Source: Blattamonas nauphoetae (lineage: Eukaryota; Preaxostyla; Oxymonadida). Taken from it: 64,000 nt of DNA. The stretch is taken from assembly GCA_033064195.1 (NCBI GenBank), contig JARBJD010000210.1, positions 62,001 to 126,000 on the forward strand, read 5' to 3'. This document shows positions 20,115-61,652 of this stretch, piece after piece. The position numbers were made by a program, and so were the translations under genes. The notes below the pieces were generated by a model, which saw nothing but the letters and a program-made list of their open reading frames with translations, searched no databases and was not told where the DNA came from. Numbering within the stretch: position 1 is the first letter of the stretch; each line of letters opens with the position of its first letter.

Positions 20115-21297
20115 ATGGATTCTACAACCTCCGATCTTTTAGTCCCTCCAGAACCTCCCACATATCCTCCAATACCGCGTGAGGTTATTACGATGATTTC
20201 CGAAGGCCTTCGTCTCGAACATGAAGACGCTGTGAATCGTTTTTCACTCGACAGCTCCTCACCTCCTAATCGAGTTGCATCATCAGCAACACAGTCCATG
20301 CAATCAATTGGATCACAAGCTTCGACTCAAACTGAACTGCCTATCACCAAAGTTAAAAGGCAACATTCAACAGTCACATCTTCTTCAGATGAAGATTCTT
20401 CAAGTTCATTGGACTCGACCAATGACGAAAGAAGGTCAACAAAATACCGACGAAAGAATAGGAAGAGGAGTTGCAAGAAGGGTAGGAATAAGCATAACTC
20501 CCACCGATCCCATAGCAACCATCGTCGTTCCCGACGAGCACAGGATAACCGGGAAATGAAGAAAAAGCATCTGAAATCACGTCAAAGAAGCAGAAAAACT
20601 AGAAGTAGCGATAGCGACTCCTCATTTTTATCATCCAGCGGCAGTATCGGCACCTCGTCTTCGGGAGAGGATCAAGATGATCTCCCGAGATTTTTTCAAG
20701 AGGATTCTCAAGAAAAAGCTCCCAAGGTTCAAAGGAGATTGGACAAAGACAGTCCTCACACCGCTTCAGCGAGAGGAACTCTTGACAGAGACGAGAAGAT
20801 TCCAAACCGTTTTGGGTATACAAATGCAGTTCGCAGACACGCCCGAGTCTCATGACAAGCTCCAGCACATCCAAGACCAACTTCTTCGGATGTCAGCACA
20901 ATCAAGTTTGGTAACTGTTGCGTTACTTGGGCAGGTTTATCATGAGATCCACCAGTTGGACCCGTCCTTCGCTTTCCTCCCAAGAATCATTGACGCAATG
21001 GTGAGTGCAGCCGACGCAGCGACTAGAGCGCATCACACGCGCTTCCTATCAACTAAAAATTGGTTGGAGATGGCGGACAAGATGGGCATTTCTCAACCGG
21101 CCTCAGTGGACTCAAGCCTCCTCACAAGCTCGCAACAATCAACGTCGTCAACACGTTCAGACTTAGAAGTAGCACTAGAAAGAATAGTTCCGACCATTGT
21201 CGCTCAATTGAAGTCTCAGATGCATTTCTCCCCCAAGGGGGGGCGGAACCGGCCCCCCTCCAAATATCCCGGTTCAGACTTCAATCGCCGAAGGTAG
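20115..21297 (+). CDS. DIRS gag-like region
   Basis: The first part is Ser/Arg/Lys-rich (SDSDSSFLSSSGSIGTSSSG), resembling nucleic-acid-binding N-termini. The second part is helical (LRMSAQSSLVTVALLGQVYH) and is typical of the first open frame of DIRS elements. Likely role: binding and packaging the element RNA. Family assignment rests on position and composition. Confidence 0.6.
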
Positions 21298-21449
21298 AAC
21301 AACCAACGATTATTACAGGACGTCTTTTGATGAGGCTGCACGCGTGGGAGAAGATCGGAGGAAAATCAATCATCACCACAGGAGCAGTGTGGGCGTGGAG
21401 GAGCCCCGAGTCCCCGTCAATATTGCAAACACTCGCGCCAGCGCTCCCC

Positions 21450-23230: not shown

Positions 23231-23459
23231 CATCAGAGAATTAGGTCAATCGGCAGGGTGGAGCGAGGATCTCATCGTCTTGCAGGAAAAGAAATACAAA
23301 CGTCCAGAAGCTTCAGCTCGATCATGGAAGATTTTCAAAGCATATTGTGTCGAGATGAATCTCTCGAATGAGTGTCTCGTCGACAAATCCACAAATATCC
23401 ATGTCCTCTTGGGTGAATTCGCTCTCTTCCTTGAAAAGAAATTCAAACAGTCACCGTCC

Positions 23460-24294
23460 CGCCCTCCCCCTCATCATGAGTCATGTGAAATCAACGCTAC
23501 AACTCTTCCACAAGAGCCTCAGCCTGGATAACACACCACTGCGATCCATTCAACGACTGATTGCTAAACGAAATCCAAGGAAGAAGGGGGCAAAATATAA
23601 GCAGATGTGGAACATCAACGCGATTCTGGATTGGGTTCTCAACTCAAATGAAGAAGCGAAGAAGAATCAAGATCTACATCAAACAAGAACCTTTATAGTG
23701 GTGTTCGCCTATCTCTGCTGTCGTCAGGAAGAACTCATCAACTTGAAGTGGACTGACATTGAATGGTCCTCGCCTTCGACAAAGACAACGAAACGTTTAG
23801 CCACAATTAACCTTCGCTTGAAACAAAATCAAGATGTGATTGAACCGAAGCTCCTTCTCGACGAGGGTTCGCCTGAACTATCTCCTTTCGTTGCACTTCA
23901 GGTTCACCGTGAGAATCTCCGCCGTCAAAAGGGTCGCCTCTCCTCTCTCTCCTTTTTCAACGAGGACCATGTTTGGATCGATTGGAAGACAGGGAGACGC
24001 CTGAGAATCTCGCACCTAAACGAAGCCATCAAGTCGGTCTTCAATCAAATTGGAATCCCCAGATACTTCGGCGCCTATACCATCAAACATGCGGCTGTTA
24101 GTTATCTGCGTCTCCGCAAGCACGTCGCTCGGTCTGTCCTTAACACTCACGTCGGATGGGCGACCTCGTCTCGGATTGCCGACGAATACTATGCAAGGGA
24201 GATTCTCGTCGAATATACCGGGAAAGATCACGCAGAAGCTTGGTGGCAGCCACTCATCGTGGGGTCACGGTCCAAAAGGAATCGTCAACACTGA
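23460..24294 (+). CDS. DIRS tyrosine recombinase
   Basis: C-terminal recombinase with FAYLCCRQEELINLKWTDIE (catalytic Arg region) and YTIKHAAVSYLRLRKHVARS, then HVGWATSSRIADEYYAREIL (His and the Tyr region near the end). Tyrosine recombinases integrate the circular DNA copy of DIRS elements. It sits immediately upstream of the internal complementary region, as usual. Confidence 0.85.
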
Positions 24295-25152: not shown

Positions 25153-25294
25153 CCGAGACGTCTATTCTGAATCAGGTACAGGTGTTGAATGAGGAACCCA
25201 AAAAGATCGTGACTAAGCGAAGATATGATGAGAGATTGACCTTAGTATCACGTGTTTGGAATTGTCTCACGGGATCCAACCATATCTTGAAACA

Positions 25295-27973
25295 ATGACA
25301 CACTCCGTTCTGTTCTTTTGTGTCATTTTAGTGTTTTCGCACCGACACCACTCCACAACACCAGTTTTCCTCTCTTCTCTACTCGACACCCATGCAAACA
25401 TCAAAAACCAACCAAACATTCGACAAATCCAAATGGCGAACAATCTGCATGAAGCGAGCATTTGCCTTTCCAACCGATTCATTTCATTAATCGGGCATGC
25501 TGAAACAAGGATTGTACCTTCTTCAAACAAAGCAGATCCTCTTTTTACTCTGCACAATTGTACATTTTCACTCAAGAACTCGCAACTATTTCCACATGAA
25601 TATGCCTTCCGTCTTGACTTTTCGTACCTGTCACTCGTTCAAACAACTCTCCATGTTATCTCACCCTGTTCTCCAATAGTATCATCACATTCTCAAGTCA
25701 TTCTTGAATCAATCACCATATCATCCCCCAGCCACTATTTGTCATCATTTGTGGAATGCGACACAACCCCGAACGAAGTTACAGCTCTCCAGATGTATAT
25801 TCATGACCATATCATCTCCAGGGGATCGCCAGTCTTCGCTTCAGTTGACACTAGAATCGTCCGACAGATGAACAACAAGCTTGCGAATCTGACTCAACTT
25901 GGGTCAACAACAGCCAAACACAGTTCATCGTATCCGACACAAACAATGATGTTGGGGAGCACGATGTGTTGTGTGGAAAGTCCACTTTATGGATGTGTGA
26001 TTTCAGACATCAACACGGGTGGCAAATTCCTCCTCCTCAACTCGACATTCACACTATCGACCGCATCTTACATGAACCAGGAATACACACACGAAAACAG
26101 GCTCAATGACATATCTTCAGAAAGTTCACTCTCGTTCACCAACTGCACGTTTACGAGCTGTTCGACGGAAGGAGGCGGAGGAGGATTCTACTATTTTCGT
26201 CATAGTGGAGCCCTCACAGTGACCGACTGCAAGTTCTTTTCCTGTAGAGCGAGAATCGATGGAGGTGCATTCGCCACATACTACGCGCGCTCTGCTCAAC
26301 TATCTAACACTCTTTTCGATGCTTGTCGAGCACAGGGAATCGCTGGTGGTCCTGTGATGAACGGAGGGACCGAAACATGCGAAATCACATTCTCCAATTT
26401 CACTGAATGCTACGGCGAAAAAGGAAGCGGTCTTCATCGTAATACTCAATCTCAGGTGGACTCTTTGACCCAATTCAGCAATTGTCGTATTGTGGGATGC
26501 GTCAGCAAGAACGGAGCCTCTTTCCAAACAGTGGCAAGCTGTGGATGTGTCTATTTCGATACAATCAAACATTTGAGTGCCCACAGCAATTTATTCACTC
26601 AAAATCAAGTCGGGTCACAAGGATTGGTCTTGTCAATTGTTCATCTCCCAATTTTCAGTTTCGACGTTCGAGACAACACATTTGAAGCCAATACCCTTAC
26701 TCCGGTCGGAACCGTATATCCAGACGCTCTATATGATGTCATGGAAAGTATATCGTCCAACATAATCCTTGAACGTTCTTGGATATTGACAGGCTCACTG
26801 TTTTCGACGCCGACTGATCTGGACGCAATTTCCGATTCTGGAAGCCCACTTCGCGTCTGCCTACAAACTTCCTCCGCATCTGCCACCTACACAGTTCCCT
26901 CTTCATTTTCATATCCGTATTTGTTCCATGTGAGCAACCAAACAACATTCACAATCTTATCTTCTTTCTCCCTCAATTTGGAGGATTGTCCGTCAGCTGG
27001 GATTTGTTCAGTTTCTGAAGGAGCTTCAGCAACAATCTCCCTGACCTCTCTCACCCCTTCCACATCTCCCACCGATGCCAACTTGTTCGTCGTCGACAAC
27101 GCCAACTTGACCTTCCATGACACCAATCTCCAAACCCTTGTTTTCTCATCCAAATCGGTGCTGAACGTGAAGGGAGCCTCGACAGTGCTTGTCTCGGGCG
27201 TCACCACCTCTTCCATCACCCAATCATCGCCGACTGCTGAGGGAGGATGTTTTCTGTGTGTGGAGGGCCAATCGACAGCTTCCGTCACGATCTCCAATTC
27301 GCTCTTTGGAGACTGTTCAACACCAGGACATGGTGGATGGGGACGGTGTGATTTTGGGGAGGAGGGACAACTCATCATCGAGGACAGCTCGTTTGGACAG
27401 GACTGTGCACAAGGAAACGGCCATCGTCTGTTCGTCTCCCATTCACATCTAAACATTTTCGTCCAAAGTGTTGACTGGACAGTTTTCGGAGTTCCAACTG
27501 TCCTCCCTCAAACGAAGGACGATGCGGATGCTCTGCTTGGATTGGTGTTTGGGATGGAATCAGAAGAGTCGTTTGGGTCGATTCTGTTGTATCTGTTCCC
27601 TCACTCCGCCGACGACGACGCTGTGCATGTCCACTCGTCTGGCCACTCGCACTTGAATTGTGGGAAGAAGCAGCTACCGTGCCTGAAACTGACAGACTCG
27701 TTGACAAAGGTGAAAGGCGATCAAGGGATTATGGTGGATTCAAGTCTGACTCTTTCGAACCAAGTTGTGATTGTCAACCGAACTATGCGCATCAAAAGTT
27801 CAACACCTGCGACGACGATTCTGACACTCGCCTTGTCGAGCTCGTTCGTTGTGGAAGAAGAGACACTCAGGTTCTCGTTGATCACTCTCCAACTCGATTC
27901 CACTCTCTCATCGACACCATTTGTGGTGTGTGGAGGATCTCTGATTCTCACAAACACATCAACAGGCATCTGA
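25295..27973 (+). CDS. G1, beta-helix surface protein, N-terminal part
   Basis: The best start is the ATG at 25295, because it gives a signal peptide (MTHSVLFFCVILVFSHRH). About 890 residues of Ser/Thr/Asn/Cys-rich repeats follow, with the FxNCxF/GG pattern of right-handed beta-helices (for example SLSFTNCTFTSCSTEGGGGG, ALTVTDCKFFSCRARIDGGA). The frame ends 11 bases inside MITE A, which splits the gene. From residue about 590 the sequence matches a second copy at 30200-31110. Such proteins are secreted or displayed at the cell surface; the ligand is unknown. It is one gene with 28491-34759. Confidence 0.8.
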   Translation: MTHSVLFFCVILVFSHRHHSTTPVFLSSLLDTHANIKNQPNIRQIQMANNLHEASICLSNRFISLIGHAETRIVPSSNKADPLFTLHNCTFSLKNSQLFPHEYAFRLDFSYLSLVQTTLHVISPCSPIVSSHSQVILESITISSPSHYLSSFVECDTTPNEVTALQMYIHDHIISRGSPVFASVDTRIVRQMNNKLANLTQLGSTTAKHSSSYPTQTMMLGSTMCCVESPLYGCVISDINTGGKFLLLNSTFTLSTASYMNQEYTHENRLNDISSESSLSFTNCTFTSCSTEGGGGGFYYFRHSGALTVTDCKFFSCRARIDGGAFATYYARSAQLSNTLFDACRAQGIAGGPVMNGGTETCEITFSNFTECYGEKGSGLHRNTQSQVDSLTQFSNCRIVGCVSKNGASFQTVASCGCVYFDTIKHLSAHSNLFTQNQVGSQGLVLSIVHLPIFSFDVRDNTFEANTLTPVGTVYPDALYDVMESISSNIILERSWILTGSLFSTPTDLDAISDSGSPLRVCLQTSSASATYTVPSSFSYPYLFHVSNQTTFTILSSFSLNLEDCPSAGICSVSEGASATISLTSLTPSTSPTDANLFVVDNANLTFHDTNLQTLVFSSKSVLNVKGASTVLVSGVTTSSITQSSPTAEGGCFLCVEGQSTASVTISNSLFGDCSTPGHGGWGRCDFGEEGQLIIEDSSFGQDCAQGNGHRLFVSHSHLNIFVQSVDWTVFGVPTVLPQTKDDADALLGLVFGMESEESFGSILLYLFPHSADDDAVHVHSSGHSHLNCGKKQLPCLKLTDSLTKVKGDQGIMVDSSLTLSNQVVIVNRTMRIKSSTPATTILTLALSSSFVVEEETLRFSLITLQLDSTLSSTPFVVCGGSLILTNTSTGI

Positions 27974-28482
27974 GTAGTCCCATCAAAATAGGTAAAACTG
28001 GGATCAATTGATGTCAGTGCCTAAATTTGTACTGAGATCATATTTCAACTCTTTTCCTTTGAGATTTTCTCATTATCACTTCATTAATCATGTTCAATTC
28101 ACTTCTTGTTTTCACATAATGCTCTTCAATATTTCAGACAGCTCTTATTTCCCAAAAACACGCACGATCACAATCACCAACACTTCTTTTTTCGATGTAT
28201 TCCCTTCATTGACTTTTGTCAGTGAGAAAAAACCATCAAAGAAGACATAATAACGCATTATCGACTTGTTTTTATAATTATTGTTGTAGAACAAACTGAA
28301 CAGCAGCACCCAAAGTTTGCATTTTCATGATCTATGAAGTGACCATTTTCCTTTTTACTTTTTTTTCCATTCAAATATCATATATAAGAAGACTTTTTTG
28401 AAATGAAAGAAACGAAATGGTATTGTAGGTATTTAGTGGGATCAGATCCGACTGGGATCACTGGGATCAAATCAGAAGCCTG
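27963..28482. mobile_element. hAT-like MITE A (520 bp) inside G1
   Basis: The ends are CAGGCATCTGAGTAGTCCCA (left) and the complement of CAGGCTTCTGATTTGATCCC (right). The 8-bp duplication CACATCAA is at 27955-27962 and 28483-28490. Subterminal GGGATCA motifs repeat at both ends. It belongs to the same family as element B (50599-52282): the right end of A matches the left end of B over about 80 bp. It has no coding capacity of its own, but an ATG at 28403 is in frame with the downstream part of G1. Confidence 0.9.
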
Positions 28483-28490
28483 CACATCAA

Positions 28491-31400
28491 GCATTACACA
28501 TTCTGGTACTTCCATCGCTCCCACATTCCTTCCAACATGGATCTTCCACGTGACAGCTGGTTCGCTTTCGATCATTGGGACTGTCTCAAAACCAAAAACC
28601 TTCGAATTCTTCTCGTTCTCGTCTGCGGATGGATGTGTTGTGTGTGTGGACAGTGGAGAAGACACAACCATCGATCCTCCATCACTCACTTTGTCGTTCT
28701 GCGAGTTCGTCTCGTGTCGTGGGGGATCAGCAGGAGGGATTGCTCTGATTGGGGAGAGAGGAGGGACAGTGCAACTGTGTGACTGTTTCTTCACCGCGAA
28801 CGAAGGCTCGCTGTCGAATGATGTGTTTGCGAGTGCCAGTTGGGCGACGTCTCTGTCAAGCTCGACAGTGGATCGCTGCTTCTCAGAGAGCATGTTGAAC
28901 CATCTGGTTGTTGGAGAGTCGCCATCAAATGATCTGCTTCCCTTCTCGGTTCTGTTGGTGGATGCAGACAACAACAACGATGTCAAGTGCGATCAGCCAA
29001 CAGTTGCGTGTTCATCCATTTTTGAGAGTTTGACACACTGCAAACAACTTGATCTGACCGACAACAAGTTCGCTCTCCGCAGAATTCGGATGGTTGGGAA
29101 CTTGACAGAAACGCAATCGATCTCCGTTTTGAGCAAAAGAGTGATCATCGATGCGTTGGAAGAGGATTCGGCTTTGATGTGGAATCCCTCAACATCGGTG
29201 TCTCTTCTGACGGTCACCACAGGATCAGCGACTCTGAAAGGATTCACTTTGATTCATGACAAGCCACAAACAACGACGCCGATGCTCTCAGTTGGCGAAG
29301 ATGGGTTCCTCACTCTCGATCGAATCGTGATGGATGGTCAACAAGCTTCGTTCTCTTCACATCTGATCTCGAACATTCAAGGCACGTTGACTCTCAACTC
29401 AGTTTCCATCTCGAACGTCACTTTGTCAGGCAATGCTCTGATTGAGGGAAGTGGGAATGTTGTGATGGATGACTGCTACTTCACGAACATTCAGAGAGAG
29501 GAGAAAGAAGCAGGTGTCCTCGAATATGATGTCGTCCCAAGCTTCACAATCAAAGTCACAAACACACTGTTCACGAACTGCAAAGGAGGAGATGAGGATC
29601 GCTGGATGTGTCTCTCCTCTCCGACTGCTTTCGCCTTCTCTTCGTCTGACTGGGAAGGAACCTTCTCTGCAAATTCACCTCGATTGGGAGTGACTGTGAA
29701 AGGATGGAATGCTGATTGGAGTTCGGAGCACCAACTCTTCTCGCTTCTGTACCTGATGTACCCCTCGAGTGAAGCCCAAATTGTTATTTCGTCGCCAGCG
29801 AATGTGGGAGACCATCCACTTTGTGGAAGCATCGAAATGCCCTGCCAAACAGTGGAGAAAGGAGTGAGATTGACTGGAGTCAGAACTGTGGAGATTTCAG
29901 TTTCCGCAGATCTGTCAAGTGTGTTGTCGGTTGGACACTCGTCTCTGTCAGTGCATGGTCGGAATGGGAAGGGTTCACTGTGCTTCTCTGAGCTTGGTCA
30001 GATTGTGAGTTCAGAGGAATCGGATGCTGGCGAAGTGATTCTGTCGAAGCTGACATTGGACGCATCTTCATCGACCCTCACTGACTCGTCGCTGATTATG
30101 ATTGGGAGTGGCTCTCTCGATATTTCGAGCTGTTCTCTCATCTCATCCAAAACCATCACTTCAGGCGTTTTCTCATTTCATGGCACTTTTTCGCTGACTT
30201 CATTCACTCTCACCCCTTCCGTCATTTCAACAGATGCCGACATGTTCGTCGTCGACACCGCCAGACTGACATTCAAAGACACCACTCTCCCAACTCTGGT
30301 CTTCTCGTCCAAATCAGTGCTGAACGTGAAGGGAGCTTCAACGGTGCTCGTCTCGGGCGTCACCACCTCTTCCATCACCCAATCATCGTCGTCTGCTGAA
30401 GGAGGGTGTTTTCTGTGTGTGGAGGGCCAATCGACAGCTTCCGTCACAATCTCCGATTCGCAGTTTGGAGATTGCTTAACACCAGGACATGGTGGATGGG
30501 GAAGGTGTGCTTTCGGTGAAGAAGGGAGGCTTGTTGTGACACAGACAACATTTGGCTCGCTCTCGGCGGGAAAGGGTGGGACATTCCTTCTCCTCTCTCA
30601 CTCCGATCTTGCTTCTGTGCTGCCATCGTTCGATTTGACGGTTTTCGGCGTTCCAACTGTCCTCCCTCAAACAAAGGAGGAGGCAGATGCTCTGCTTGGG
30701 CTGGTGTTTGGGAAAGAATCTGAAGAGTCGGTTGGGTCGATTCTGTTGTATCTGTTCCCTCACTCATCCAGCGACGACTCTGTGCATGTTCACTCGTCTG
30801 GGCATTCACACTCGAATTGTGGGAAGAAGCAGCTACCTTGCCTGGCTCTGCCAGACTCGTTGACAAAGGCGAAAGGCGAACAGGGGATTATGGTGGACAC
30901 AAGTCTGACTCTTTTGGACGAAATTGTGATTGTCAACAGAACAGTGGAGATCACTTGTCCTCCAACTGAGACGATGATTCTGACGCTCGGCTCGTCAAGC
31001 TCGTTTGTTGTGGAAGAACACACTCTCACGTTCTCGTTGATCACACTCCAACTCGATTCATCACTTTCGTCGACTCCATTTGTGGTGTGTGGAGGGTCTC
31101 TGATTCTCACTGACATATCGAGCATCACACATTCTGGCACTTCCATCTCTCCCACACTCCTTTCAAAATGTGTCTTCCACGTGACATCTGGCTCATTATC
31201 GATTGTTGGGACTGTCTTAAAACCAAAAACATTCGAATTCTTCTCGTTCTCGTCTTCGGATGGATGTGTTGTATATGTGGACAGTGGAGACGACACAACC
31301 ACTGATCCTCCGTCACTCACCATATCGTTCTGCGAGTTCATTTCTTGCCACGGAGGATCAACAGGAGGGATCGCTCTGGTTGGAGAAAGAGGCGGGACAG

Positions 31401-34400
31401 TGCAGCTGAGTGACTGTTTCTTCACAGCGAACGAAGGCTCATTGTCGAAGGATGTGTTTACGAGTGGAAGTTGGGCAACCTCACTGTCAGCCTCGACCGT
31501 GGAACGCTGCTTCTCTGGGAGCATGTTGAACCATCTGGTTGTGGGAGAGTCGCCAGCGAATGATCTGCTTCCCTTCTCGATTCTGTTGGTGGATGCAGAC
31601 AACAACGACGATGCCAAATGTGATCAGCCATCTATTGCCTGTTCGTCATTCAGTGAGAGTTTGAAGCACTGCACACAACAGGAACTGAACAGCAAAAAGT
31701 ACGCACTCCGCGGAATGAGAATGGTGGGAAACTTGACGGAAACGCAATCGATCTCCGTTTTGAGCAAGAGAGTGATCATCGATGCACTGGAAGAGGATTC
31801 GGCTTTGTCGTGGAATCCTTCGACGTCGGCATCTCTCCTGACAGTCACCACAGGATCAGCGACACTGAAAGGATTCACTTTGATTCATGACAAGCCACAA
31901 ACAACGACGCCGATGCTCTCAGTTGGCGAAGATGGGTTCCTCACTCTCGATCGAATCGTGATGGATGGTCAACAAGCTTCGTTCTCTTCACATCTGATCT
32001 CGAACATTCAAGGCACACTGACCCTCACCTCTGTCACCATCTCCAACATCAATTTGCCGAACTACGCTCTGATTGAGGGGAGCGGAAATGTCGTGATGGA
32101 TGGATGTGACTTCACGAACATTCACAGAAGCGAGAAAGAAGCAGGTGTCCTCGAATATGATGTCGTCCCAAGCTTCACAATCAAAGTCACAAACACAATG
32201 TTCACAAACTGCAAAGGAGGAGATGAGGATCGGTGGGTGTGCCTCTCCTCTCCGATCGAGTTCGACTTCAAAGCGTCTGACTGGGAAGGAACCTTCTCTG
32301 CTAATACGCCTCGATTGGGAGTCGCTGTGAAAGGGTGGAATAATTCGTGGAGTTCGGAGCACCAACTGTTCTCGTTGTTGTACCTGATACACCCTTCTAG
32401 TGCCGCCCTAATTGTTGTGTCGACGGAATCCAGTCTGGAAGACCATCCGCTCTGTGGAAGCATTGAAATGCCTTGCCAAACATTAGAGACTGGAGTGGAA
32501 TTGACGGGAATCAGAACTGTGGAGATCTCAGTTTCAGCCATTCTGTCGAGTGTGTTGTCGGTTGGGCACTCGTCTCTGTCAGTGCATGGTCGGAATGGGA
32601 AGGGCTCGCTATGCTTCTCTGAGCAAGGGCAGATTGTGAGTTCAGAAGAGTCGGATTCTGGCGAAGTGATTTTATCGAAGCTGACATTGGACGCATCTTC
32701 CTCGACCCTCACTGACTCGTCGCTGATTATGATTGGGAGTGGCTCTCTTGATATTTCGAGCTGTTCTCTCATCTCATCGAAGAACATCACTTGTGGTGTG
32801 TTTTCTGTCCAAGGCAGTTTTACGCTGAATCAGTTCAATTTCACTCATCTCAACTTCTCTCACACGCCTGTCATCTTGAACTCAGCCGAACATGTCACAA
32901 TCTCTCATTTCACAGTCCACTCTTGTCACTTCGACACGCTCATTGACGCCAACAGCACAGCCTCGATGACCATCGAATACTCGTCGTTCACAGGAATAAC
33001 CCAGCCGGTGGAGAAGAACACAGCTGAAGGGGGAATGTGTGGATGGGAGACAGGAATGGTTTTACTGCGGAACACGACGTGCACGCTGCAGTCTGTGCTG
33101 ATGACCGACCTGGACGATGGAGCAGTGATGGTTCAAGATTCACAAGTGACGATTGACTCGAGCACATTCCACGACAACACGCCGAACGACGAAGTGTTCA
33201 GATCAGCGCGGAAGAACATTGGATGTGTTGGGGAAAGCAAGATTGTGGTCGGGAGTCTTTCGGGAGGAGATGGGAGTGGAGACGAATCGATGTGGATCTA
33301 TTCGGATGCCTCGTGTGAAGTGTGGAAGAACAAGACTCGCTCGCTGTCGCCTTTCTTCGTTCCCACTCTGAACTCGTCAGCTTCGAAAGCGGAGGAAGTG
33401 AAAGAAAAGACGGACAAGTCGTTCTCGCTGAAGATTGTTGGATCACTTTTGATTCCGTGCGATCTAAAGCTTCGCGTATTCGAGGTGAAAGGGAAAGAAG
33501 AGAAGAACGCGCACTCGATTAACCTTTCAGAGTTCGCGACCATCTCTGATTGGAACGAAACATCGTTCTCAGTGTCTCTCCCCTTCTCCTCCATCCCTCT
33601 TCAGTCTGATCTGGAATGGCGGTGTCAGTTGGAGTATGGATTTGGAGCTCGAACTGAAAACTGGATCCGATTGAAGCTGAGTCTGTCGGATGAGAGAAAG
33701 GCACTCGCACTAAACACGATGAAATGGCTTGGACCAGTTTTGGGAGGTGTCTTTGGATTATTCGTTCTGCTCCTCGTGATCATCATCGTTCTGTGCGTGA
33801 GACGTCGAAAACAAAAACCCGAAGAGAAACCAGAGGAATTGACACCAGTCGATGAAGAAAAGATTGCTGTTGAGGAATTCTACGAAGGTAGCCAGTTGGG
33901 AGCGACTGGTCACGCGATCAGAGCAGTGGAGTCGGTGGAGGGGAAGACAACTTGGTCGGAGGAGACAGGAATGGGAATGAACGAAAAACCGTCACTCAAC
34001 GGAACAGGGCAAGGTGAGATGATTGAGGCATTGTCACTGTCGAACTGTGTGGACCTTGTGCGAGTGAACAAGATGGACACGCTGTATCGTCGTCTTCATT
34101 CACCTGATGCGGACGAAACCAACATTCGTCGGAAGGAGCTTCAAAAGCAGCTGGCGAAAGGGATGGCTCGACTGATGAAAGCTGATCCTCACTCGGAGTC
34201 GTTCACAAAACTCACCTCGCACTGGATTCTTCTGTCGAGCGAAAAAGTTGTCCTGAAACTGAGAGACGACGCCCCTCTTCCCTTCTCCTGTCCCCATCCA
34301 GCGACTCGGGAACCAAATCTTGTGTTGGACAATCCCTGCGTGGAAGGAGGAAGTCTAGTGTCGTACTCGTCAGGAAACGTTCAGAAAGGGACCAAGAACG

Positions 34401-34759
34401 ATGATCTGACAGTTCGATGGCAGGCACCCGAGCAGGGCGACTCAAACAAGTTCATTGATCCCCACAAAGCGGCAGTTTTTAGGCTTGGCCTCGTCTTGTG
34501 GGAAATCGAGACTGGTTCTATACCGTTTGGCGAGACGGACGCAGTGAATGCGAATCGTTCGCTGTGTTCAGGAATGCTTCCGAAAATGGGGACAATCACC
34601 GAGAAGAGTTTTGTGGATCTGATCGCGTCGTGTCTGAGTGTGAACCCGGCTGACCGCCCATCGCTGGATTCAGTAGCAGATTTCTTTGAAGAAAAAGAGG
34701 AGAAGAACAGCGAGAAGAAAGAAGAAGTGCAGCGGACAATGGAAAGACCTTCCAATTGA
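28491..34759 (+). CDS. G1, surface protein, main part with pseudokinase tail
   Basis: An open frame from the ATG at 28403 in MITE A (2118 residues); host sequence begins at 28491. Domains: more than 1700 residues of beta-helix repeats; membrane span (WLGPVLGGVFGLFVLLLVII, about 33722-33790); RRRKQK; then a cytosolic kinase-like domain with RWQAPEQ (34414), LGLVLWEIETGSIPFGETDA and CLSVNPADRPSLDSVADFF. The kinase lacks a visible glycine loop, HRD and DFG, so catalysis is unlikely and a scaffold role is plausible. The ectodomain has a duplication of about 2.6 kb: 28490-30200 repeats at 31115-32810, and 27060-27960 at 30200-31110. Only the MITE breaks the gene; whether any product is made across it cannot be seen. 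Confidence 0.85.
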
Positions 34760-35526
34760 TCTCTCATCGGAGATACAAAACACGATAATCTGACTCTACA
34801 ACTGAATGTCTCTCTCATTTGCAAATTCGATGTGAGAACATTTCACCAATTCTCTTCTTGTCAAGTCAACCACTCTTCTTTTTTCCTCCTCGAAGCCATC
34901 TTGCTTCTCACTTCTCGATTCATACTTCTTCATGTGCCATCCTTCATGTCAGATCCTTCTTTTTTGGCACTCTTGATTTCGTTCGTGTCTTTTGTTTCTT
35001 TCTGTTCTCATGTCACACATCGTTCTGATGGATTCACTCATCTCGAGTGAGCTTTGGCACTTCTCACCTTAATTCTCCACCGTCTCTTCACTATAATCAG
35101 GATTTGAGACTGAAATGTTTGTATAAAGTCACGAACAACAGAAAGTTTCAAAGAGGAAGTCGAACCATCAGGCCTTTTAGACCTGTGAGAAAATTTTTGA
35201 AAACTTGGGAGCGTACCCCAGCTCGTAAAAACGAAGTATCTCAGTTTTTTTGTGAACTTTGTGAATGAGGAGGATTCTGACTACATAAATCTGTAATTTT
35301 TTTTAAGATGGATCATAGATCAAAAAAAGTGGTGAAAAATCGATCTAGGTTACAAAACTGATTTCTATTAGAAACTTTCAACATATTGTTCCTTTTTATT
35401 CAGAATAAATCCACCGATCGCTCAATATAATGACTAGAGAGTGAGAAAATGAGCAGAGAAAAAAAGTACGGTATTTCCACTAGAGGCACCAAAACAAGTC
35501 ATCAACCACCGAATGATGCTCATTCA
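34760..35526. other. G1 downstream flank, no gene
   Basis: Pyrimidine-rich, then AT-rich. It holds the ATCAGGATTTGAGACTGAAA block shared with the flank of the 18249-19335 copy, and at about 35192 TTTTTGAAAACTTGGGA, whose inverted copy is at about 38364, outside the next element. Confidence 0.6.
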
Positions 35527-35580
35527 TAGTGATGAGCATTTGTCCGGTCAAGCGAGGCGCTGTCCAACCTTGGACAGCGC

Positions 35581-36770
35581 CTATTTAGGAGGTCGGATCT
35601 CATTACTTTTCCAAAGGGTATGATCGACTGAAAGATTGTGAAATTCCAATGAAATAACGTTCAAATCTCTCCTAGACGCGAGATACTTCCATCTCTTCTT
35701 CAGCTGTGCCTGGGATATGACGCCAATTCTCTGAACAGTCGGTGACTGGGGAGGAGGAGGGGATGTGCGCTTTGAGAGTAGACGGTCTGTTAGACTCGTC
35801 TTTTCGTAAATTTCAGGCATTTCAACTTGATATGCATACCGTTCTGGGTCTTTGGTGATTGTGAGGAGGGTGAAGTTGAAAAGAATCATAAGAGAAGATG
35901 GGGAACGTCTCGAGTGTCCTTCGAGCTCGGCATGAGCGAGAACTGCGCCTTTCTGAAGATCTCTCCGTCGCTCTCGTGTAGTTTGCGTTCTCTCTTCGTC
36001 AGTCTCTCCAAAGTCCTTCCGAGAATCGATTGTCCGAAGCGAGCTCGCAGCTCGTTGAGTGAATACGTGCTGGTTGATGCGATGTCAGGGATTTTGATGG
36101 TTGCGATGAATGACGCCATGTCGACGAAGCTAGAGAGGTGCTTCGGAAGAGCGAAGGCGGGGAGGGGAAGGAGCGAGCGGAGGATTGCTTGGCTCGCGGC
36201 TGCGTAGTGGTTGTTCACAGCTTCTGACGCTTTTGAAACGAATGTCACGAGCGGTCCGAATGTGGATTCAATTTGAGGTACGACACAGACAGTGTGGAAT
36301 CGGAGAGGAGAACAGGCATTGAAGAGAACGAATACTTTGCGAGAACATCTTCGCTGATGAAGTAGACTCGGATGGACGGTGCTGTTTCAACGACAAATCT
36401 GCAGCCAACTTCAACTTTTGTGAGATCCTGAGTTTTTCCGACTTTCCTCTCTGCTCCGTCTCTCCTTCGCTCTCCTCCTGAAATACGTCATCCTCTGCGC
36501 TTCCCCCTTTCTCGTCTGCGTCCTCCTCATCATCCCCATAAAACGTGTCGTCCTCTCCTGTCTTAGGCAAAACACGAGGCGAAGGACGGATCGACTCTTT
36601 CTCAGATTCTTGTGAGAGTGTGTCCGTCTTCTCTTCCGATTCAGATGATTGTTCTTCGATCGGCGCCACAGCCTCGGCTTCGTCTTCTTCCTTCTCCTCA
36701 ACACAATCCGCAATCACTGGTTCGTCTTTCTCTTCTTTTTTCTTCTGTTCAGATGGCTCTTCCTTCTTCT
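35581..36770 (-). pseudogene. cargo of C1: acidic and helical host protein fragment
   Basis: Reverse-strand blocks: 36268-36717 is Glu/Ser-rich (EEKEEDEAEAVAPIEEQSSE), 35886-36248 is folded-looking (VSKASEAVNNHYAAASQAIL, SFVDMASFIATIKIPDIAST), and 35581-35889 continues in another frame. There is no start codon in a sensible place and the frames change, so I read it as a captured fragment. The family is not recognised. C2 carries unrelated sequence at the same position. Confidence 0.5.
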
Positions 36771-37149
36771 AACTCTCCTTTCTTCTCCACCCGTTTCTCG
36801 AACTCGACTCGTTGCGATGGGTCAGCTCATCTGCATCGACTAAATCGAACGAGTTCTCACTCTGCTCCTTCTTTTCATCTTTCTTCTCTTCTTCCTTCAT
36901 TTCCTCTTCGTCTTCACTAGTCTCACTCTGTTCTTATCTCCTTCTCGTCGAATTTGACGAGATCTCCTTCTAATTTGGGTTAGGAGTGAGATTCAGCTTC
37001 TATTTTTGCTTTCTGGTGAAGAATCCTTTTGCTTTACTTCTGAATCTGGAGCATTATGAGTGACGTTCTCTTGTTTTATCAATGAAAGTTTCCCTCTTCA
37101 AATATATGCATGATCAGAACACTTCTTGTCATAAAGTGATGAAGAATCA

Positions 37150-38297
37150 GTGAATAAGAGTTGTGCGAAGCACACCTTTCAAACTGACTCTGCATGATGG
37201 TTCCGTTATGTTCATTTTCTCAAACTTTATTGTGAACGAGCTCGTACACTTGACGATGAAGATCGTCTTCTCCTCACACTCTGCTTTGTCTCTTCGTCCA
37301 ATCTCCCTGGTTCTCGCTGACGAATCAAATCAGTATGTCCTCCCTTGGTCTCATCCAATCTCAGTTTAAAGGATCGACAGTTCCAACTGCACTTCTTCAG
37401 GGGAGAGAAGACATAAAAATAGAAAAAAGACAATAAACAACATGAATATGTATCATCTTATGTAAGAAATAGGGTAATACAGTCTATTTCGAGGTTGAAA
37501 GCGATCCGTTCATTTTGGGCGAGAAATGAGAGAGACAATGATATTCTCGATTGGAGTAGGCGAGAAAATGTCTTATCAGGACTCAAATTGAGATAATTCT
37601 TACTGATAAAACACATTTAAAAAAGAGGAACGAGATACAAGTCAAGTTCTTCGAAACGCCAGCAAAGTGTGTTGGATAGCTGCCAACTTCGAGTTCAGAT
37701 TGATGAGATCATGTCTGACTCAAGATACTCCTCCGTTTGGTGAAATTATCACGTGAAAGGTCATCAAAAGAGAAATAATGTGTTGATTCAGAAGTGATCT
37801 GTTTTCCTCGAGTGAGTTTTAAAAAGAATCACACATTGTTCAATCACAAGAAAAATGATGTGAAGAATGGAATTGTGAAATTAAAAACGATTTAATGGTC
37901 TCTGAGAGGAAATGGAAGACGAAGTCAACTCGCGATGGGGAGGACGATCCGGACATGTCCAGGACTGGACACGATTGTCCATTTTCTAATGATCACCAAT
38001 GGATTGTGCAGCAATTCAGACGATTCATTTTTTCAACAAATGAGCGAATGTCCAAGATCGGACAAGCTTGGACATTTCAGCAATTTATGGGATTTCTGTC
38101 CGAATTCTTTAATACTCGTTTTCATTTATTTAAAAGACAAAATCTGAACGAAATTAACATCATAGATGACTTGAAAGAAAAGTTAAGTAACTATCACTTT
38201 GAATTAGGCCACAGGAAACACTTCTTTCTCACTTGGACAAGGTCTCTGTCCGATGTCCGAGGAGAACGAGGTTTTGTCCGTCCGTTGCACATCCTTA
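37150..38297. repeat. shared backbone of C1 (right 1.1 kb)
   Basis: It aligns along its length with 41640-42797 of C2, including ACGATGAAGATCGTC-like and GATGGGGAGGACGATCCGGA blocks. It includes clustered GGACATGTCCAGGACTGGAC-type motifs at about 37950-37980 and 38050-38075. The forward frame at 37895-38383 is not conserved as protein in C2 and is probably not a gene. Confidence 0.7.
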
Positions 38298-39018
38298 CTC
38301 ATTCACAACTAATTATCCACCAGACGAAAGTTTTTTATAAGAGGTACGGGGGCTTGCTGTCCCAAGTTTTCAAAAATGTGTAGTTCTCAATGAAATAATC
38401 CTCGCGTCACAAAATCGTACTGACGCAGTAATTCTCCTAAAAAATTATCTTTCTTCGTTTATCATCCCTAAATACATCATTTCTGAACTTTTTTCAATTT
38501 CATAAAAACATTGAAGTTGTCACGATCAACTCTGAAATCTCACGTTTTTTCAATTTTTCTCTTTAATGGATGTATTTTGTCCATTGTTTCACATAGAGAC
38601 CTCTTTTTTTGTTGTTTTCCATCCTTTCCCTGTCTTTGAACTTGTTTTGCAATAAAAAGTGTGCAAAAATGTGCTGATCTTAGAAAGGCCATTTCATGCG
38701 CGATCAGGCTTGAAATCTATAAATTCACCTTTCTTATGTGTACTCAACAACTAAATCTGAATTCAGTAAAATTTGATTTTTTCCACGCTCATATATTATT
38801 TGCATCATTTCATTGAGATTTACACAAATTTTCTCACACCTTTAATCGGCGTGGGTGGACTTTGTGGGCGAAAAAACGCTCAGTAGTGGCAAAAAAGCTG
38901 TGCTCGGCGGGAGTCGAACCCCGAGCACAACACACCGCACGTTCACTTCCAAAAATTTGGTGCCTTCCAGGGAGAACCGCTATCGTCTTTCACTTCACGA
39001 TACACCATGATCTGTCAT
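38298..39018. other. AT-rich spacer with a tRNA-like hairpin
   Basis: No coding sequence. At 38909-38937 an 8-bp stem (GTGCTCGG/CCGAGCAC) encloses, on the reverse strand, GGTTCGACTCC, a perfect pol III B-box, followed by a T-run. No matching D-arm or anticodon arm could be folded, so it is not called as a tRNA. Confidence 0.4.
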
Positions 39019-39833
39019 AGTACCCGGATAAACCCGTTAAGTCGGATAAACCCGTTACCAACATACCCCACTTCACAATGATCATTTTGTTCTGACGACT
39101 GATATGTTGTGTGGAAAAGAAAGTAATCGGTAGAATTCTGAAATGATTGGTCTCTTGTTCAGATGTTTGATCGACGTCTATGGGTCATTTCAAATCGATG
39201 AATGACCAGCCACGACACCCCGCATGTGATGCTGAGTACAAAGTAGGGAGGAGCAATTGTCCGGACAAGGTGAGGCGCTGTCCGTCCTCGGACAGCGCCT
39301 AATTAGGATGTCATTGCTCGTAACTTTTCAAAAGGGTTTGATCAACTTTTTCTGAAATTTATTGACTAACTTGGAGAATTGAATCATTTTTAAGAAATAG
39401 GAGAGGAGGAAAAGATGAAGAGAGATGTGATGGAGAACAGAGAAGATGAAGAGAAAGAGTTGGATGGAGAAGAGAAAGAGGATGGATAGAAATAGGTGTG
39501 GAAGGGAAGGACGAGAACGAATGATCGAGTCGGTATGGCCTTTATGTGGTTTTTGATGGACTGAATGTGAGGAAGTTCCTTTCGGAGTGTCTCCTCTCAT
39601 CATTTCGTTTCTCTCCCTTCGTCTCGTATCAACTTCGTTGTTCCTCATTCTCCGATTCATCTCCTCTTCTCTCCTCTTCATTTTCGCTGCTTCCTGTCTT
39701 GTCATTCTTGTCAGATCTGCCACACACGCCCGCTGGCTGGTCCGACATTCATCGATGAAAATGGAAAGGGGTCAGTGGAGTCTCGGGATGGTTCAGTATC
39801 ATCTTGTGAGGGTGTGGGTGTTTCCCAGGAGGT

Positions 39834-41450
39834 TTAGTTCACATTGTCGAAGTGCCGCTTTCCTTCTTCCTCCTTCCTTCGTTGTTCCTCTTCCTCTTTC
39901 TTCTTTCGTTCGTCTTCTTCTCGTTTCTGAGAGAAGCTGCCGCGTGAACTCGCACCAGTTGAAGTTGACGGGCCAACTGGGCGAGCTGGAGAACTGGACG
40001 TGTCGATCATCTTCCCAATGCCCCAGCGAGCAAATGCACTGGACACACTCGATCCGGTCTCGATCGTCGCTGAGTCTTTCTGAGCTGCTCGTTGCCTCTC
40101 TCGCTCCAAATCCTCTCTGATCTTTCGCTGCTTCTCTTCCGCTGCTTCTCTCTCAGCATTTTGCTTCCTCTCCCACTCTGACTTTTTCTGACTTTCAGCT
40201 TGACGTTTTCGTTCGGCCTCCCTTTCTCTCCTCCTCCTTTTGTTGTTCCTCTTTCTTCCTTCGTTCTTCCGCTTCCTTCTCCTTCCGAAGCGTCTCCTGA
40301 ACTTCTCGTTTGATTCTCTCCTTTTCTCTCTCCTCATCTTCCCTCCTCTTCTCCTCTTTCCTCCTTTCCTCTTCCATCCTCTCATTCCGCTCTCTCCTCC
40401 CGTCTTTCCTGTTCTCGCCGATTCTCATCCTCTTTCCGTCTCAAACGCTCCTTCTCTTCGCGGTCTTGATCGTCCTTCTCCTGTGGGATTCTTCTTTCCT
40501 CTTCAGCCTCTCTTTCCCGATTGAGCATGTCGGCTCGCATGCGCTCCTCATCGATCTCTTTTGTCTCCGGTCTGCTTCCTCTTTTGACGTTTTGCTTCTT
40601 CCTTCTTTCTTTGTTCTTCTTCTTCCTTTTTCTTTCGTTCGTCTTCTTCTCGTTTCTGAGAGAAGTTGCCTCGAGATGACGATGATGTCAGTTGGGGACC
40701 GACTGGACGAGATCCAACTCCAGTGTCGATCATCTTCCCAATGCCCCAGCGAGCAAACGCACTTGACACACTCGATCCTGTCTCGATCGTCGCTGAGTCT
40801 TTCTGAGCTGCTCGTTGTCTCTCTCGCTCCAAATCCTCTCTGATCTTTCGTTGTTTCTCTCCCGCTGCTTCTCGTTCAGCTTCTTGCTTCCTTTCCCATT
40901 CTGACTTCTTTGGGGGAATATTCGCTTTCTTCTCTTCCTCCCTTCGCCTCTCCTCTTCCTTTCTTCTCTTCTGCGATTTCACGCCTCACTCGTTCCTGAA
41001 TTCGCTTTTTCTCTTCTTCCTCCTTCCTTCTCGCTTCTTCTTCCTTCCTTTTGCTTCTTCCTTCATCTTCCGTTCTTCTTCCTTTCGAAGTTCCTCCTTT
41101 CTCTCCTCTTCTCATTGCTTCTCTTCAGTGAGTTCTTTCCGCACTCTTTCTTCAATTTTCTTTCGCTCTTCCTCTTCCCATCGTTTCGCATCTTCTTTGC
41201 TTCGTCTTTCTTCATCTTCCCATCTTCGCTTCGCTTCTCGTTCAATTCTTTCCTCTTCTTCTCTCCTCTTCCTATCTTCTTCTCGCCTCGCTTTTTCCTC
41301 ATCTTCCTTTCTTCGTTCTTCCTCCAATTCCTTCATCACCCTTTCTTCAATCTGCTTTCTCTCATCTTCTCTCCGCTTCTCTTCCTCTTTCTCTCGCTCT
41401 TCTCTCTCAGTCACCTGTTTCCTTTCCCATTCTGTCATTCGATCTCATGA
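39834..41450 (-). pseudogene. cargo of C2: Glu/Arg/Lys coiled-coil protein fragment
   Basis: Reverse-strand frames 41112-41438, 40548-40982 and 39834-40385 read as long charged coiled coil (REEREKEEEKRREDERKQIE). A distinctive non-repetitive part, SVSSAFARWGIGKMIDT, occurs twice (about 39990-40050 and 40715-40775), each after REDLERERQRAAQKDSATIE and before FSQKREEDERKKKEEEEQR, so about 350 bp is duplicated some 720 bp apart. Frames change several times, but repeat composition keeps most of them open. It is probably a captured and locally duplicated piece of a cytoskeletal-type host protein; identity unknown. Confidence 0.5.
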
Positions 41451-41639
41451 GGGTGGAGGAGGAGATGAATAGATGTGAGTGGCTGTGAGAAGGAAGGGAT
41501 GGACTGAAAAAACCTCATTCACTTTACGAATGATTACATACGTTCTGCATCTTTCTGAGATGTCTGTCTCATGTTTTATCGATTAACTGTTCCACTTTAA
41601 ATTTCTGTATAGTCAGGACACTTATTGTCATAAAAATGA

Positions 41640-42797
41640 AGAAATATCTGTAAGTCAGAGTAGGGAGAAGCATACTTTTCAAATTGGTTTCGTTTGATGT
41701 TTCCGTTTCGTTCTTTTTCTCCAACTCCATTGTTCACGAGCTCGGACCCTCGATTATGAAGATCGTCCTCTCCTCTCACTCTGTTTTGTCTCTTCGTCCC
41801 AACTCCCAGTTCATTGTTTACGAATCAGCTCGGTTTGTCCTCCTTTGGCCTCATCTATTCCGTCTTCACAGGATCGACAGGTCAATCTGCCTTCTGGAGG
41901 GAAGATCAACAATAATAAATGTGAAAAAAGCGATCAATAATATGAATATGAATCATTTTGATTCGGAAAAAGTGTAATACAGACTATTTCGAGGTAGAAA
42001 ACGATCCGTTCATTTAGGGCGACAAATGAGAGTGTAACGACCATCTCATTTGGATAAGGGCGAGAAAGCATCGTATCTGGATTCAAAATGAGAAATTTCT
42101 TTATAAGAAAACATCTTGAACCAAAAGGAACGAGATACCAGTCAAGATCATCAACAAACCAACAAAGTGTGCAACAGAGCGGCGAATTTTGAAGGCAAAT
42201 TGATTCGATCATGTTTGAAATAAGATACTACTATCATTGACTGAATTCTGACGTGTAACATCATTGAAAGAGAAATAATGTGTCAAATCGGAAATGAACT
42301 GAATTCCCGGAATGAGTTTATAAAAGTATCGCAGAATGAGTGGTTGCTAGAAAATGATGTGAAGAATGGAATTTCGAAGTGAAAACCGATTTAAGTGACC
42401 CTGAAAGAAATGGGACGACGAAATTAACTTGAGATGGGGAGGACGATCCGGACATGTCCAGGACAGGACAGTTTTGTCCATTTTGATCTGATCACAATTG
42501 GATTGTGAAGAAATTCAGATGATTCGTTTTTTCAACAATTGAGTGAATGTCCAAGATCGGACAAGCTCGGACATTTCAGCAATTAATGGGTCTTTTGTCC
42601 AAATTCTCTAGTACTCGTTTATCATTTTGATGAAAGACAAAATCTGAATTTAATCACCACTATTCACTTATTTATTAACGAATTGAGTGTCAATCACATT
42701 GATTTAGGCCACATGAAGCACTTCTTTTTCACTTGGACCTGTCCGCTGTCCGTTGTCCGAGTTGAACGTCTTTTTGTCCGTCCGTTGCTCATCCTTA
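41640..42797. repeat. shared backbone of C2 (right 1.1 kb)
   Basis: Counterpart of 37150-38297 in C1, with similar spacing of motifs such as GGACGATCCGGACATGTCCA (about 42441). No gene seen. Confidence 0.7.
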
Positions 42798-42805
42798 GTA
42801 CAAAG

Positions 42806-43390
42806 AGGTTGCATCTCAATGTACCATCCCTTGGACGCCTGGGAAGACATTGGCTAAGTTCCGAGCACATTTCGACTTACATTTTTCTCATTCCATTTCA
42901 CAATCATTCTTTCAACAGTGACTCCTATTTTAAAAATAATGAAGAGAGTAATGAACAGGAAGTGGAAGGATAATTTTAGTGAAGAGGGGGGACTGCTATG
43001 CTCATGTGGAATGGTTCACGGGTTTATCCGCTCTAACGGGTTTGTCCGGGTACTATCATTGTGTTTTCACTCTCCTTCACTTACGCCATCTCCTCCCTCT
43101 CCTCCTTCTCTCACTTCGAGAGAAAATCCAGTGAGTGGGTTCAGTCACGACATCACGTTCAGATTCCCAATCTGCGGCAGGAGTAGCCAGTATCAGTGTG
43201 GTTGATGTTTGAGGGATGCAAATTCCAAAAACCTGCATCAGAACATGTCCAAGCATTAGTTCGGCATGTCAGACACCGTCAATTGAGGGACAGGTCACCC
43301 AGTTTTGGAGCGAGGACAGGATGAACCACTTTCAAGCATGCGACGATGAAGGCGATAATGAATGACATAAACTGACTAAAGGGGGTGTCA
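42806..43390. other. spacer, no clear gene
   Basis: It contains the right inverted GGATAAACCCG end (about 43015-43055). The reverse frame 43279-43527 overlaps the probable end of H2 but is in a less protein-like frame. Confidence 0.4.
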
Positions 43391-52794: not shown

Positions 52795-53597
52795 TGACGA
52801 ATAGATTATTTTTCTACTCATTGATTATGCCGGACTAATGACTATGCTCGTGTCAATGTGTCAATGGGTGTCAATGGGTCAAAATTTGATTTTCATTTTT
52901 GAAAAGTCCACCACTCGACGAAGTAACTCCATAGAGAATAACAAAAATGAATTTTTAAAAATTGACCTTTATTATTGTGACCACCCAAAATTGTACCAAC
53001 AAGGTCAATATCGACACGGCAAGTTCATTTATCATGTTTCTAGAGTGATCTGACAACATTATGTGGACTTATGGGAATTTTCAAAATTAAGGCCGATTTA
53101 TTTTTTTTCGGATTTTTTATTTCGCATATGAAGAGTAGGTCCAAAATGTTCAAGTGTGAGACCTCGACGTAATTTCCCTTGATGCTCAGGCAAAATGGTG
53201 CCCTTGTGATTAATGCGTAGAACTACTTGGAGGTTGTGTTGGAGACGGTGGATTTTATAAATCCGCCCCGGGGTTCATGTTGGCATCACTTAGATGTGAC
53301 CGTAAATCATGCCCACCCAATGCTTATTCCTTCAAGGACTTCGCCAGTGTTAGTCATTAAGTAGGATCACGATAGAATGATCCCCAAAGGAGTATCGGGT
53401 TGTCTTATGGAAACTCTCACGAACGTAAAATGGAACTAACCTTCACGTATTTTTATCCTGACCAATATCAACAGTAGCAAAGTCACAATTCTGTCTTCAG
53501 AAAAAAACAAGGAGAAATAAAAATTTGTACAGTTTTGGAGCTCATCAAGAATAATCACTTAACTTTTTTTATTTTTGGATTTTTTAATTCGACTAAA
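52795..53597. other. structured non-coding region in Polinton
   Basis: No gene over 800 bp. The part 53150-53450 is GC-richer than its surroundings and has hairpins: GGTGGATTT/AAATCCGCC (53247-53267) and GGATCA/TGATCC (53364-53383). It ends with a T-rich motif before the next frame. It could be a non-coding RNA or a replication or promoter region; nothing decides this. Confidence 0.4.
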
Positions 53598-53600
53598 ATG
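53579..53600 (+). promoter_or_regulatory. T-rich motif before Polinton frame
   Basis: TTTTTAATTCGACTAAAATG, ending in the start codon. Similar T-runs followed by TAWA-type sequence and ATG precede the frames at 50485, 61653 and 63635. Probably a shared initiator or promoter of the element. Confidence 0.4.
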
Positions 53601-54338
53601 GAATCTCCTCTAAAAGTTGTACTAAATTACATCACAAAAATTAAACAACTATTTCCGAACACCACGTTTGACTTCAAGGATAAACATGGATATGATCGAC
53701 ACTATAATCCCGAGAGTAAAAACTACAAACATCAAAGATCATATCTCCTGTCAATGCTCAAGAATCCAGAAGTTCACTTCGAAGGACCAACAAAGCATAT
53801 TGGTGATAGTGATATCGAGAGTTACATACAACAAATTGAACAACAAAGAGAACAACAAGCGATTCACAAACAGAATGAACAGAACAACAATGCAATGATG
53901 AATGAAGAGGATCACAATATCATCATCATCGATGTGAAAGCTCATCCAAGAATTAACGAAACTGAACTGAAGAAGCAAGTGTTCAAGATCACAAGGAAAC
54001 TAAAGTCAATTGAAGAGAAGCTTATGGATCATTGGATGAAGAATCTGTTGATCATTCAAAAGAAAAATAAACGAATGGAATCAAAGGATGTGAAGTCATT
54101 CAATGGTTTTACCGAATGTATTCTGCTCGCTGAACCACGAAGCAAAAATGCATTCAATTCATGTTTACGGAGCGCACGAAGAAAGTTCAAAAAGAATGAG
54201 ATCGAAAAAGAAACTACCAATGGAAAACCATATCAGTTGTACTTCCACAATCACTTGAAGAACGTTGAGGAAATCACTACATTTATCAGGACTGTGTATG
54301 AAAAAAGAGAAGGATCATCCATTCAAGATCAGTATTGA
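53598..54338 (+). CDS. Polinton protein of unknown function
   Basis: 246 residues from the ATG at 53598; the upstream in-frame TTG is not needed. Lys/Glu/Asn/Gln-rich and helical: QQIEQQREQQAIHKQNEQNN (about residues 89-108), FKITRKLKSIEEKLMDHWMK. It lies directly upstream of the polymerase and overlaps its start by about 40 bases. This is where some protein-primed systems keep an accessory or priming protein; that is a guess from position only. Confidence 0.6.
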   Translation: MESPLKVVLNYITKIKQLFPNTTFDFKDKHGYDRHYNPESKNYKHQRSYLLSMLKNPEVHFEGPTKHIGDSDIESYIQQIEQQREQQAIHKQNEQNNNAMMNEEDHNIIIIDVKAHPRINETELKKQVFKITRKLKSIEEKLMDHWMKNLLIIQKKNKRMESKDVKSFNGFTECILLAEPRSKNAFNSCLRSARRKFKKNEIEKETTNGKPYQLYFHNHLKNVEEITTFIRTVYEKREGSSIQDQY

Positions 54339-60022: not shown

Positions 60023-60030
60023 CCTACAAG

Positions 60031-61629: not shown

Positions 61630-61652
61630 TATCAAACTTTATTTTTGTATAA

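Follow-up and report, generated by a model that had tools for sequence, protein, structure and literature searches.

Probable Pack-type, hAT-like elements with shared ends and different host-gene patchworks in the oxymonad Blattamonas nauphoetae

Introduction

Why should two neighbouring transposable elements have the same ends and different DNA between them? The question is raised by a stretch of 64,000 nucleotides from the gut-dwelling protist Blattamonas nauphoetae (G000:C125:62001-126000, hereafter the window; G+C 44.97%), in which two elements, here called C1 and C2, lie side by side with the same ends and different host-gene patchworks. A first-pass annotation of these letters had read them as one hAT backbone with two cargoes, as repeated capture of host gene pieces at a fixed site of the element (Pack-type behaviour) would give. 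We followed this reading through the B. nauphoetae assembly (G000; 88,311,006 bases, 837 contigs); in most genome searches the best candidates were scored, without full lists. Throughout, C1 and C2 are the elements of the window. Assembly contigs carry G000:C-numbers (e.g. G000:C1), shortened to the C-number or, where needed, to "contig C1", and L052 and L058 are extracted stretches.

Results

Two complete non-autonomous elements

C1 (35527..38297, forward strand, 2771 bp) and C2 (39244..42797, forward strand, 3554 bp) have exactly the boundaries that the first-pass annotation gave them. Both ends of each element are variants of TAGGGATGAGCAA, forming terminal inverted repeats (TIRs) of 13 bp at 35527-35539 and 38285-38297 in C1 and at 39244-39256 and 42785-42797 in C2. 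On both sides lies a target site duplication (TSD) of 8 bp, CTCATTCA around C1 (35519..35526 and 38298..38305) and GTACAAAG around C2 (39236..39243 and 42798..42805). The 13-mer by itself was found 25 times in the window against 16.4 expected, a number reached in 5 of 100 shuffles and hence not significant. Since the end alone is no evidence, the case for the elements is carried by the TSDs and the copy number. Among the C1 and C2 copies with both flanks read, 19 of 22 have a perfect TSD, namely three of three for C1 (the window copy and two others by eye) and 16 of the 19 full-length copies of C2, the remaining three matching at 7 bases. C1 and C2 are complete non-autonomous elements with TIRs and a TSD. 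Around C2 lies a 39-nt inverted repeat (90%; 39017-39055 and 43018-43056), which suggests that C2 inserted into another short element whose ends resemble ATAGTACCCGGATAAACCCGTT.

C1 has four copies in the genome at 98-100% identity, the window copy and three further ones, one of which (contig C189) is interrupted. For C2 there are 20 copies, 19 of them full length, plus one fragment at contig C161. Segment by segment, the C2 copies diverge by 0-0.29% (0.07% in the right backbone, 0.18% in the cargo part Y described below), pointing to a recent burst of amplification. The cargo is uniform within each subfamily, in the four C1 and the 20 C2 copies, and different between subfamilies. Capture events look few, followed by recent amplification.

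One backbone with unrelated middles

The likeness of C1 and C2 stops at the same places in both elements, after 103/104 bp counted from the left and after 1253/1254 bp counted from the right. The left parts (35527..35629 in C1, 39244..39347 in C2) are 81% identical over 104 bp, and the right parts (37045..38297 and 41544..42797) are 75.6% identical. The common right part reported earlier is therefore real but measures 1.25 kb, not 1.1 kb, and it is accompanied by the shared left part. Both elements contain the hairpin GGCGCTGTCC..GGACAGCGCC (35556-35581 and 39274-39299), some 30 bp in from the left, and the TGTCC clusters seen at first reading hold up: in the right 450 bp, TGTCC/GGACA occurs 12 times in C1 and 13 times in C2, against about 0.6 in single-base shuffles. 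Between the shared ends the two elements align only weakly, in pyrimidine-rich sequence. An 843-bp stretch of the right backbone was present in 20 C2 and four C1 copies (all 30 candidates scored). Part of it occurs at contig C1:461460, contig C1:463644 and C57:458823, and pieces of it lie at C514 and C334. The interior length is different again in no fewer than three additional copies with the C1/C2 backbone, where it was estimated from nearby left ends at about 570-730 bp.

The left-hairpin pattern, with up to two mismatches, was matched 137 times forward and 135 times reverse in the genome, and the reversed control gave no match; because the pattern is nearly palindromic, these numbers mean about 137 sites. 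One hundred of them, on contigs C1 to C468, were listed, and by position two belong to C1, 18 to C2 (one being the fragment) and 37 lie beside the cargo of a third group of elements. The hairpin strand is unsafe for orientation, longer alignments running opposite at C13:53788, C57:458185 and C76:22144; a recheck by eye altered no count. By longer alignments, three pairs of left ends lie in the same orientation and at most 7 kb apart: contig C1:462845/465024, C46:550977/556997, and C1 with C2 in the window. A candidate fourth pair, C118:122297/122963, has the hairpin alone as its basis and may be one element.

Cargo loci outside the elements

The C1 cargo, antisense to the backbone, comes from two sources. 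Its gene A part (35823..36449, reverse strand) consists of four blocks of the locus G000:C246:142235-143613, in the same order and at 94-96% DNA identity; between them C1 skips about 56, 604 and 76 bp of the donor. Read as protein, two blocks match within a 3843-aa open frame at C246, and the first 47 residues match a separate 127-aa frame there, as would be expected if C1 had shifted frame at the last join. The gene B part (36450..37051, reverse strand) is made of blocks of a second gene family, represented by G000:C428:6292-7740 and its paralogue C305:2610-4039 (80-90%), and its last section also matches contig C2:41420-41675. The blocks are similarly spaced in C428 and C305, and both paralogues therefore contain the stretches that C1 lacks. 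The two sources abut at 36449/36450. The acidic protein fragment described for C1 at first is this gene B part, but the cargo as a whole is a mosaic of two gene sources. No match to 35655-35822 was found in the genome comparisons.

For junction reading we fetched ten short donor-side stretches at the C1 joins. Seven joins carry microhomology of 1, 2, 6, 2, 5, 4 and 0 bp, a sum of 20 against a chance mean of 5.4 (P = 0.00025), the control being random joins within the same letters only.

Most of the C2 cargo, also antisense, is part Y (39855..41408, reverse strand), a series of collinear blocks of a locus at G000:C287 (L052:1268-3718). The blocks, L052 1268-1627 (96.4%), 1650-1728 (96.2%), 1893-2010 (97.5%) and 2711-3718 (93.7%), fall inside a single coiled-coil open frame of 1363 aa. 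The duplicated coiled coil noted before is present (40000-40187 versus 40723-40910, 93%) and corresponds to tandem repeats of the donor itself, between which the jump from L052 2010 to 2711 sits. The part Y alignment contains six jumps, two with microhomology (4 and 9 bp) and two leading to short, weak end blocks. What the first description lacked is a second, repeated source, part X (39566..39862, reverse strand; identity 73-84%), with three blocks like G000:C623:236684-237755 (77-84% for this match). The stretches 39348-39565 and 41448-41543 are without an assigned source. The simple case of one captured fragment per element was rejected, given the two sources of C1 and the second source X of C2.

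As judged from these matches, the cargoes are host DNA with putative parental loci outside the elements (C246, C428/C305 and C287). Pfam gave nothing in six cargo or donor frames (window 35889-36386, 36271-36768, 35584-36084 and 39837-40424; L058:201-719; L052:302-4393), and the C287 donor protein was not among the matches of the protein-database searches. The longest antisense frames, of 166 aa in the C1 cargo and 196 aa in that of C2, are spread over several frames, and the frame-broken cargo of both elements probably makes no working protein.

A third group of elements

Of 119 candidates for the third group 40 were scored, and all 40 share one interior, a third one unrelated to those of C1 and C2; the group thus has at least 40 copies. 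The cargo contains an antisense frame of 173 aa, stop-free over at least 162 residues at no fewer than 40 places and broken or split at others. Coding-like frames are thus antisense in C1, C2 and the third group alike, as first reported for the former two, although three of three is not significant. The third-group cargo resembles a large gene family outside the elements, with a longest good frame of 3248 aa at C212 (72%) and, among the matches listed, many frames of 300-2900 aa at 31-46%; unlike the loci of C1 and C2, its donor is known only at the level of the gene family. No link could be made between this cargo and the large window genes at 25256-34759, and we therefore do not describe it as a beta-helix gene.

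A 145-bp stretch divides the 40 scored copies of the third group into two lineages, of 15 and 25. When three copies of each were compared, the 560 bp inside the right end were 98.6% alike and the right 411 bp only 82.4%, the similarity changing some 360 bp in from the end. The right end of one lineage is 86% identical to that of C1 and 89% to that of the C514 element, and the other is 92% identical to that of C2; among the matches listed, the two types occur at 14 and 13 places. Interiors so alike with right ends so different indicate that right-end modules were exchanged between the lineages.

A minisatellite with a GATGATCACACGAGG-like unit adjoins the third-group cargo (L058:1-150, many copies); the extent of the repeat varies by copy, and it is a likely source of length differences. 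At some 20 places (C5:8748, C6:130235, C141:119936, C183:105373 and others) there are frames, mostly of 209-242 aa, with 63-67% identity to the third-group cargo protein, many at identical scores; perhaps they belong to a further mobile family that bears a fragment from the same gene family. Some 3-4 kb separate one third-group element from the C287 locus that is the donor for C2 (G000:C287:20560-23728 and 26818-31296), a proximity that may be chance.

Other mobile DNA in the window

The window also contains a hAT transposase-like frame (2300-4855), with matches at 41-94% identity to five B. nauphoetae proteins (BLNAU names). Two nested candidate elements surround it. The inner one (1952-7018) has the repeat CCTGTAGG and inverted ends (TAGGCTTGGCTGACCGGC) at least 18 bp long, the outer one (1852-7596) the repeat CTTATTTC and GGCATG ends. 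Antisense frames lie inside (5213-6863), and the nested element is possibly a transposase-bearing hAT that also carries host-like DNA. At 53535-63597, frames look by eye like genes of Polinton type, with pieces of a DNA polymerase B and an integrase.

Discussion

How the cargo was acquired

The Pack-type interpretation is supported: the copies neither all carry one cargo nor share a conserved element gene, since the cargo differs between subfamilies and matches coding loci outside the elements. We consider it very probable that C1, C2 and the third group are Pack-type (Pack-hAT-like) elements, with a cargo assembled from DNA by microhomology-guided template switching and recently amplified. 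They would be moved by a transposase made elsewhere, acting on the terminal repeats and on subterminal modules rich in TGTCC and leaving the 8-bp duplications that are seen at C1 and C2. Host-derived DNA lies between a left module, of about 104 bp or slightly longer, and a right module of about 1.25 kb (some 360-411 bp in the third group), most likely copied from DNA and not from spliced RNA. Collinear blocks, microhomology at joins and two sources in one cargo suggest how: a broken or stalled element end may have been extended on a host gene, with forward jumps at short matches, then on a second source, before rejoining the element. Finished mosaics were then amplified by transposition, as the TSDs and the near identity of the C2 copies show, and ends can pass between lineages, as is shown by the third-group right end.

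Several observations weigh against this account. The divergence between cargo and donor (about 2.5-6% for A and Y, 10-20% for B) is far above that among the C2 copies. The true donors may therefore have been paralogues of the loci matched here, and older or later changes could account for some of the joins; the C2 burst is recent, and the capture older or from a lost paralogue. One C1 join lacks microhomology and one fits poorly (26 of 34 bases), while four of the six C2 jumps are without microhomology as placed, their placement being arbitrary inside repeats. The inner 154-170 bp of part X (39693-39862) match 11 other places at 73-76%, so X may be a repeat and not a single gene. The left border is less sharp than the right one, some relatives being like C1 to position 128 and the copy at contig C1:462720-462900 like C2 to position 180. 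By position, none of the three cargoes belongs to 43 of the 100 left ends listed. Finally, no transposase-bearing element with these ends was found in a search for the hAT dimerisation domain PF05699 only, the nearest match inward of the 100 listed left ends lying 16 kb away. The proposal of repeated capture at a fixed site largely holds, with corrections: C1 and C2 stop at the same places, but their left border is less sharp and capture events look few. Since the right border of the third group differs, a fixed site can hold only for the C1/C2 backbone.

The main alternative is that two related elements inserted on either side of a gene piece and were re-mobilised with it as a unit, microhomology deletions arising later inside. 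This is the route proposed for Pack-CACTA and other Pack-TYPE elements in plants (PMC8903248), and close same-orientation pairs do exist in this genome, three by longer alignments. By itself, however, tandem insertion leaves unexplained why two unrelated loci abut in one cargo and why C1 and C2 stop at identical places, and neither cargo showed internal remnants of element ends in comparisons that were not designed for such remnants. We regard it as unlikely, though worth keeping in mind.

Which superfamily moves these elements is a separate matter. hAT TIRs are short and start with YARNG. The ends of C1 (TAGTG/TAAGG) and of C2 (TAGGG/TAAGG) fit this form, the TSDs of both have the 8 bp of the hAT superfamily, and the genome holds 61 matches to PF05699. 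The putative hAT assignment rests on the TSD and the ends, and none of the elements was found to contain a transposase. Alternatively, these carriers of captured genes would belong to a different cut-and-paste group that also makes 8-bp duplications, of P or Merlin type: no transposase is linked to the element ends, and the TSDs lack, by eye, a clear nTnnnnAn pattern. Given the YARNG ends and the abundance of hAT dimerisation matches, in a genome where the P and Merlin transposases themselves were not searched for, such an origin appears improbable.

Retro-capture, in which spliced host transcripts are reverse transcribed into the element, would account for the intron-sized length (about 55-77 bp) of some of the missing stretches, and the window contains retroelement-like frames by eye: overlapping frames at 20115-24294 look like a retroelement with a reverse transcriptase and a tyrosine-recombinase-like frame. 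The joins tell otherwise. Even when 3 bases of slack are allowed, none of the six within-gene joins of C1 fits a GT-AG intron on either strand. Where C246 143348 and 143425 are joined, the donor reads open across the 126 bases covered, as does one other frame, and the elements lack stretches of about 600 and 700 bp that lie within long open frames. Together with the microhomology at the joins, the missing GT-AG fit and the open donor frame make capture from DNA most likely, and we rejected spliced-RNA capture as very improbable. Hardly credible at all is the idea that the middles are diverged ancestral genes of the element and the host loci domesticated copies: one cargo is indeed fixed across the copies of a subfamily, but three subfamilies hold three unrelated middles, the element contains collinear pieces of matched loci whose continuous frames are much longer, and none of the 100 listed left ends (contigs to C468) lies in contigs C246, C428 or C305.

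Beyond template switching as such, the family may constitute a modular gene-shuffling system, in which end modules recognised by the transposase are exchanged, the slot between them is refilled time and again by multi-jump template switching over one or more host genes, and the new antisense gene chimeras so made spread through the oxymonad genome. We put this forward tentatively, as a possibility that falls short of being probable.

Significance and comparison with known systems

Gene-capturing transposons like those of plants and animals would, on these results, also work in a distant oxymonad branch. A recently amplified multicopy family would place Pack-type capture in a deeply separate eukaryotic lineage, and its occurrence there would suggest that capture follows from transposon repair biology, not from how plant genomes are built. 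The template-switching model can be tested on these nearly identical copies, whose donors and joins are readable, and the swapped right ends are an internal record of module exchange. As the first-pass annotation had supposed, we found no report of Pack-type or hAT gene capture in oxymonads or other protists in the open-licence literature searched; a paper retrieved for oxymonads and transposons (PMC8767320) does not mention hAT. Pack-type capture is described there from plants (PMC8903248) and, mostly single-copy, from animals (PMC8277862).

The systems closest to the present one share some of its features and lack others. Mutator elements have longer TIRs and 9-bp TSDs, whereas the ends here are of about 13 bp and the TSD of 8 bp. 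Pack-MULEs, which belong to Mutator, resemble our elements in that a TIR element captures host gene fragments (PMC6446971). The Pack-TYPE transposons of plants, which include Pack-hAT, are likewise non-autonomous, with terminal repeats, an 8-bp TSD, host coding pieces and several copies (PMC8903248). They also form close same-orientation pairs, and the three pairs found here appear to resemble the local insertions described in that paper. What differs is the oxymonad host, the several skipped collinear blocks with microhomology joins, and the third-group lineages with swapped right ends. In animals, Pack-TIRs are explained by the FoSTeST template-switching model, with capture-join microhomology of 1-36 bp (median 2), four multicopy cases among reference genomes plus the Ssk-FB4 family, and a median cargo of 224 bp (PMC8277862). 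Our elements share with them the microhomology at joins, multicopy cases with distinct TSDs (e.g. hAT-N8_XT) and distant donors, and differ in copy number (20 and at least 40), in the 1.4-2.2 kb interiors of C1 and C2, and in the joining of two gene sources in C1.

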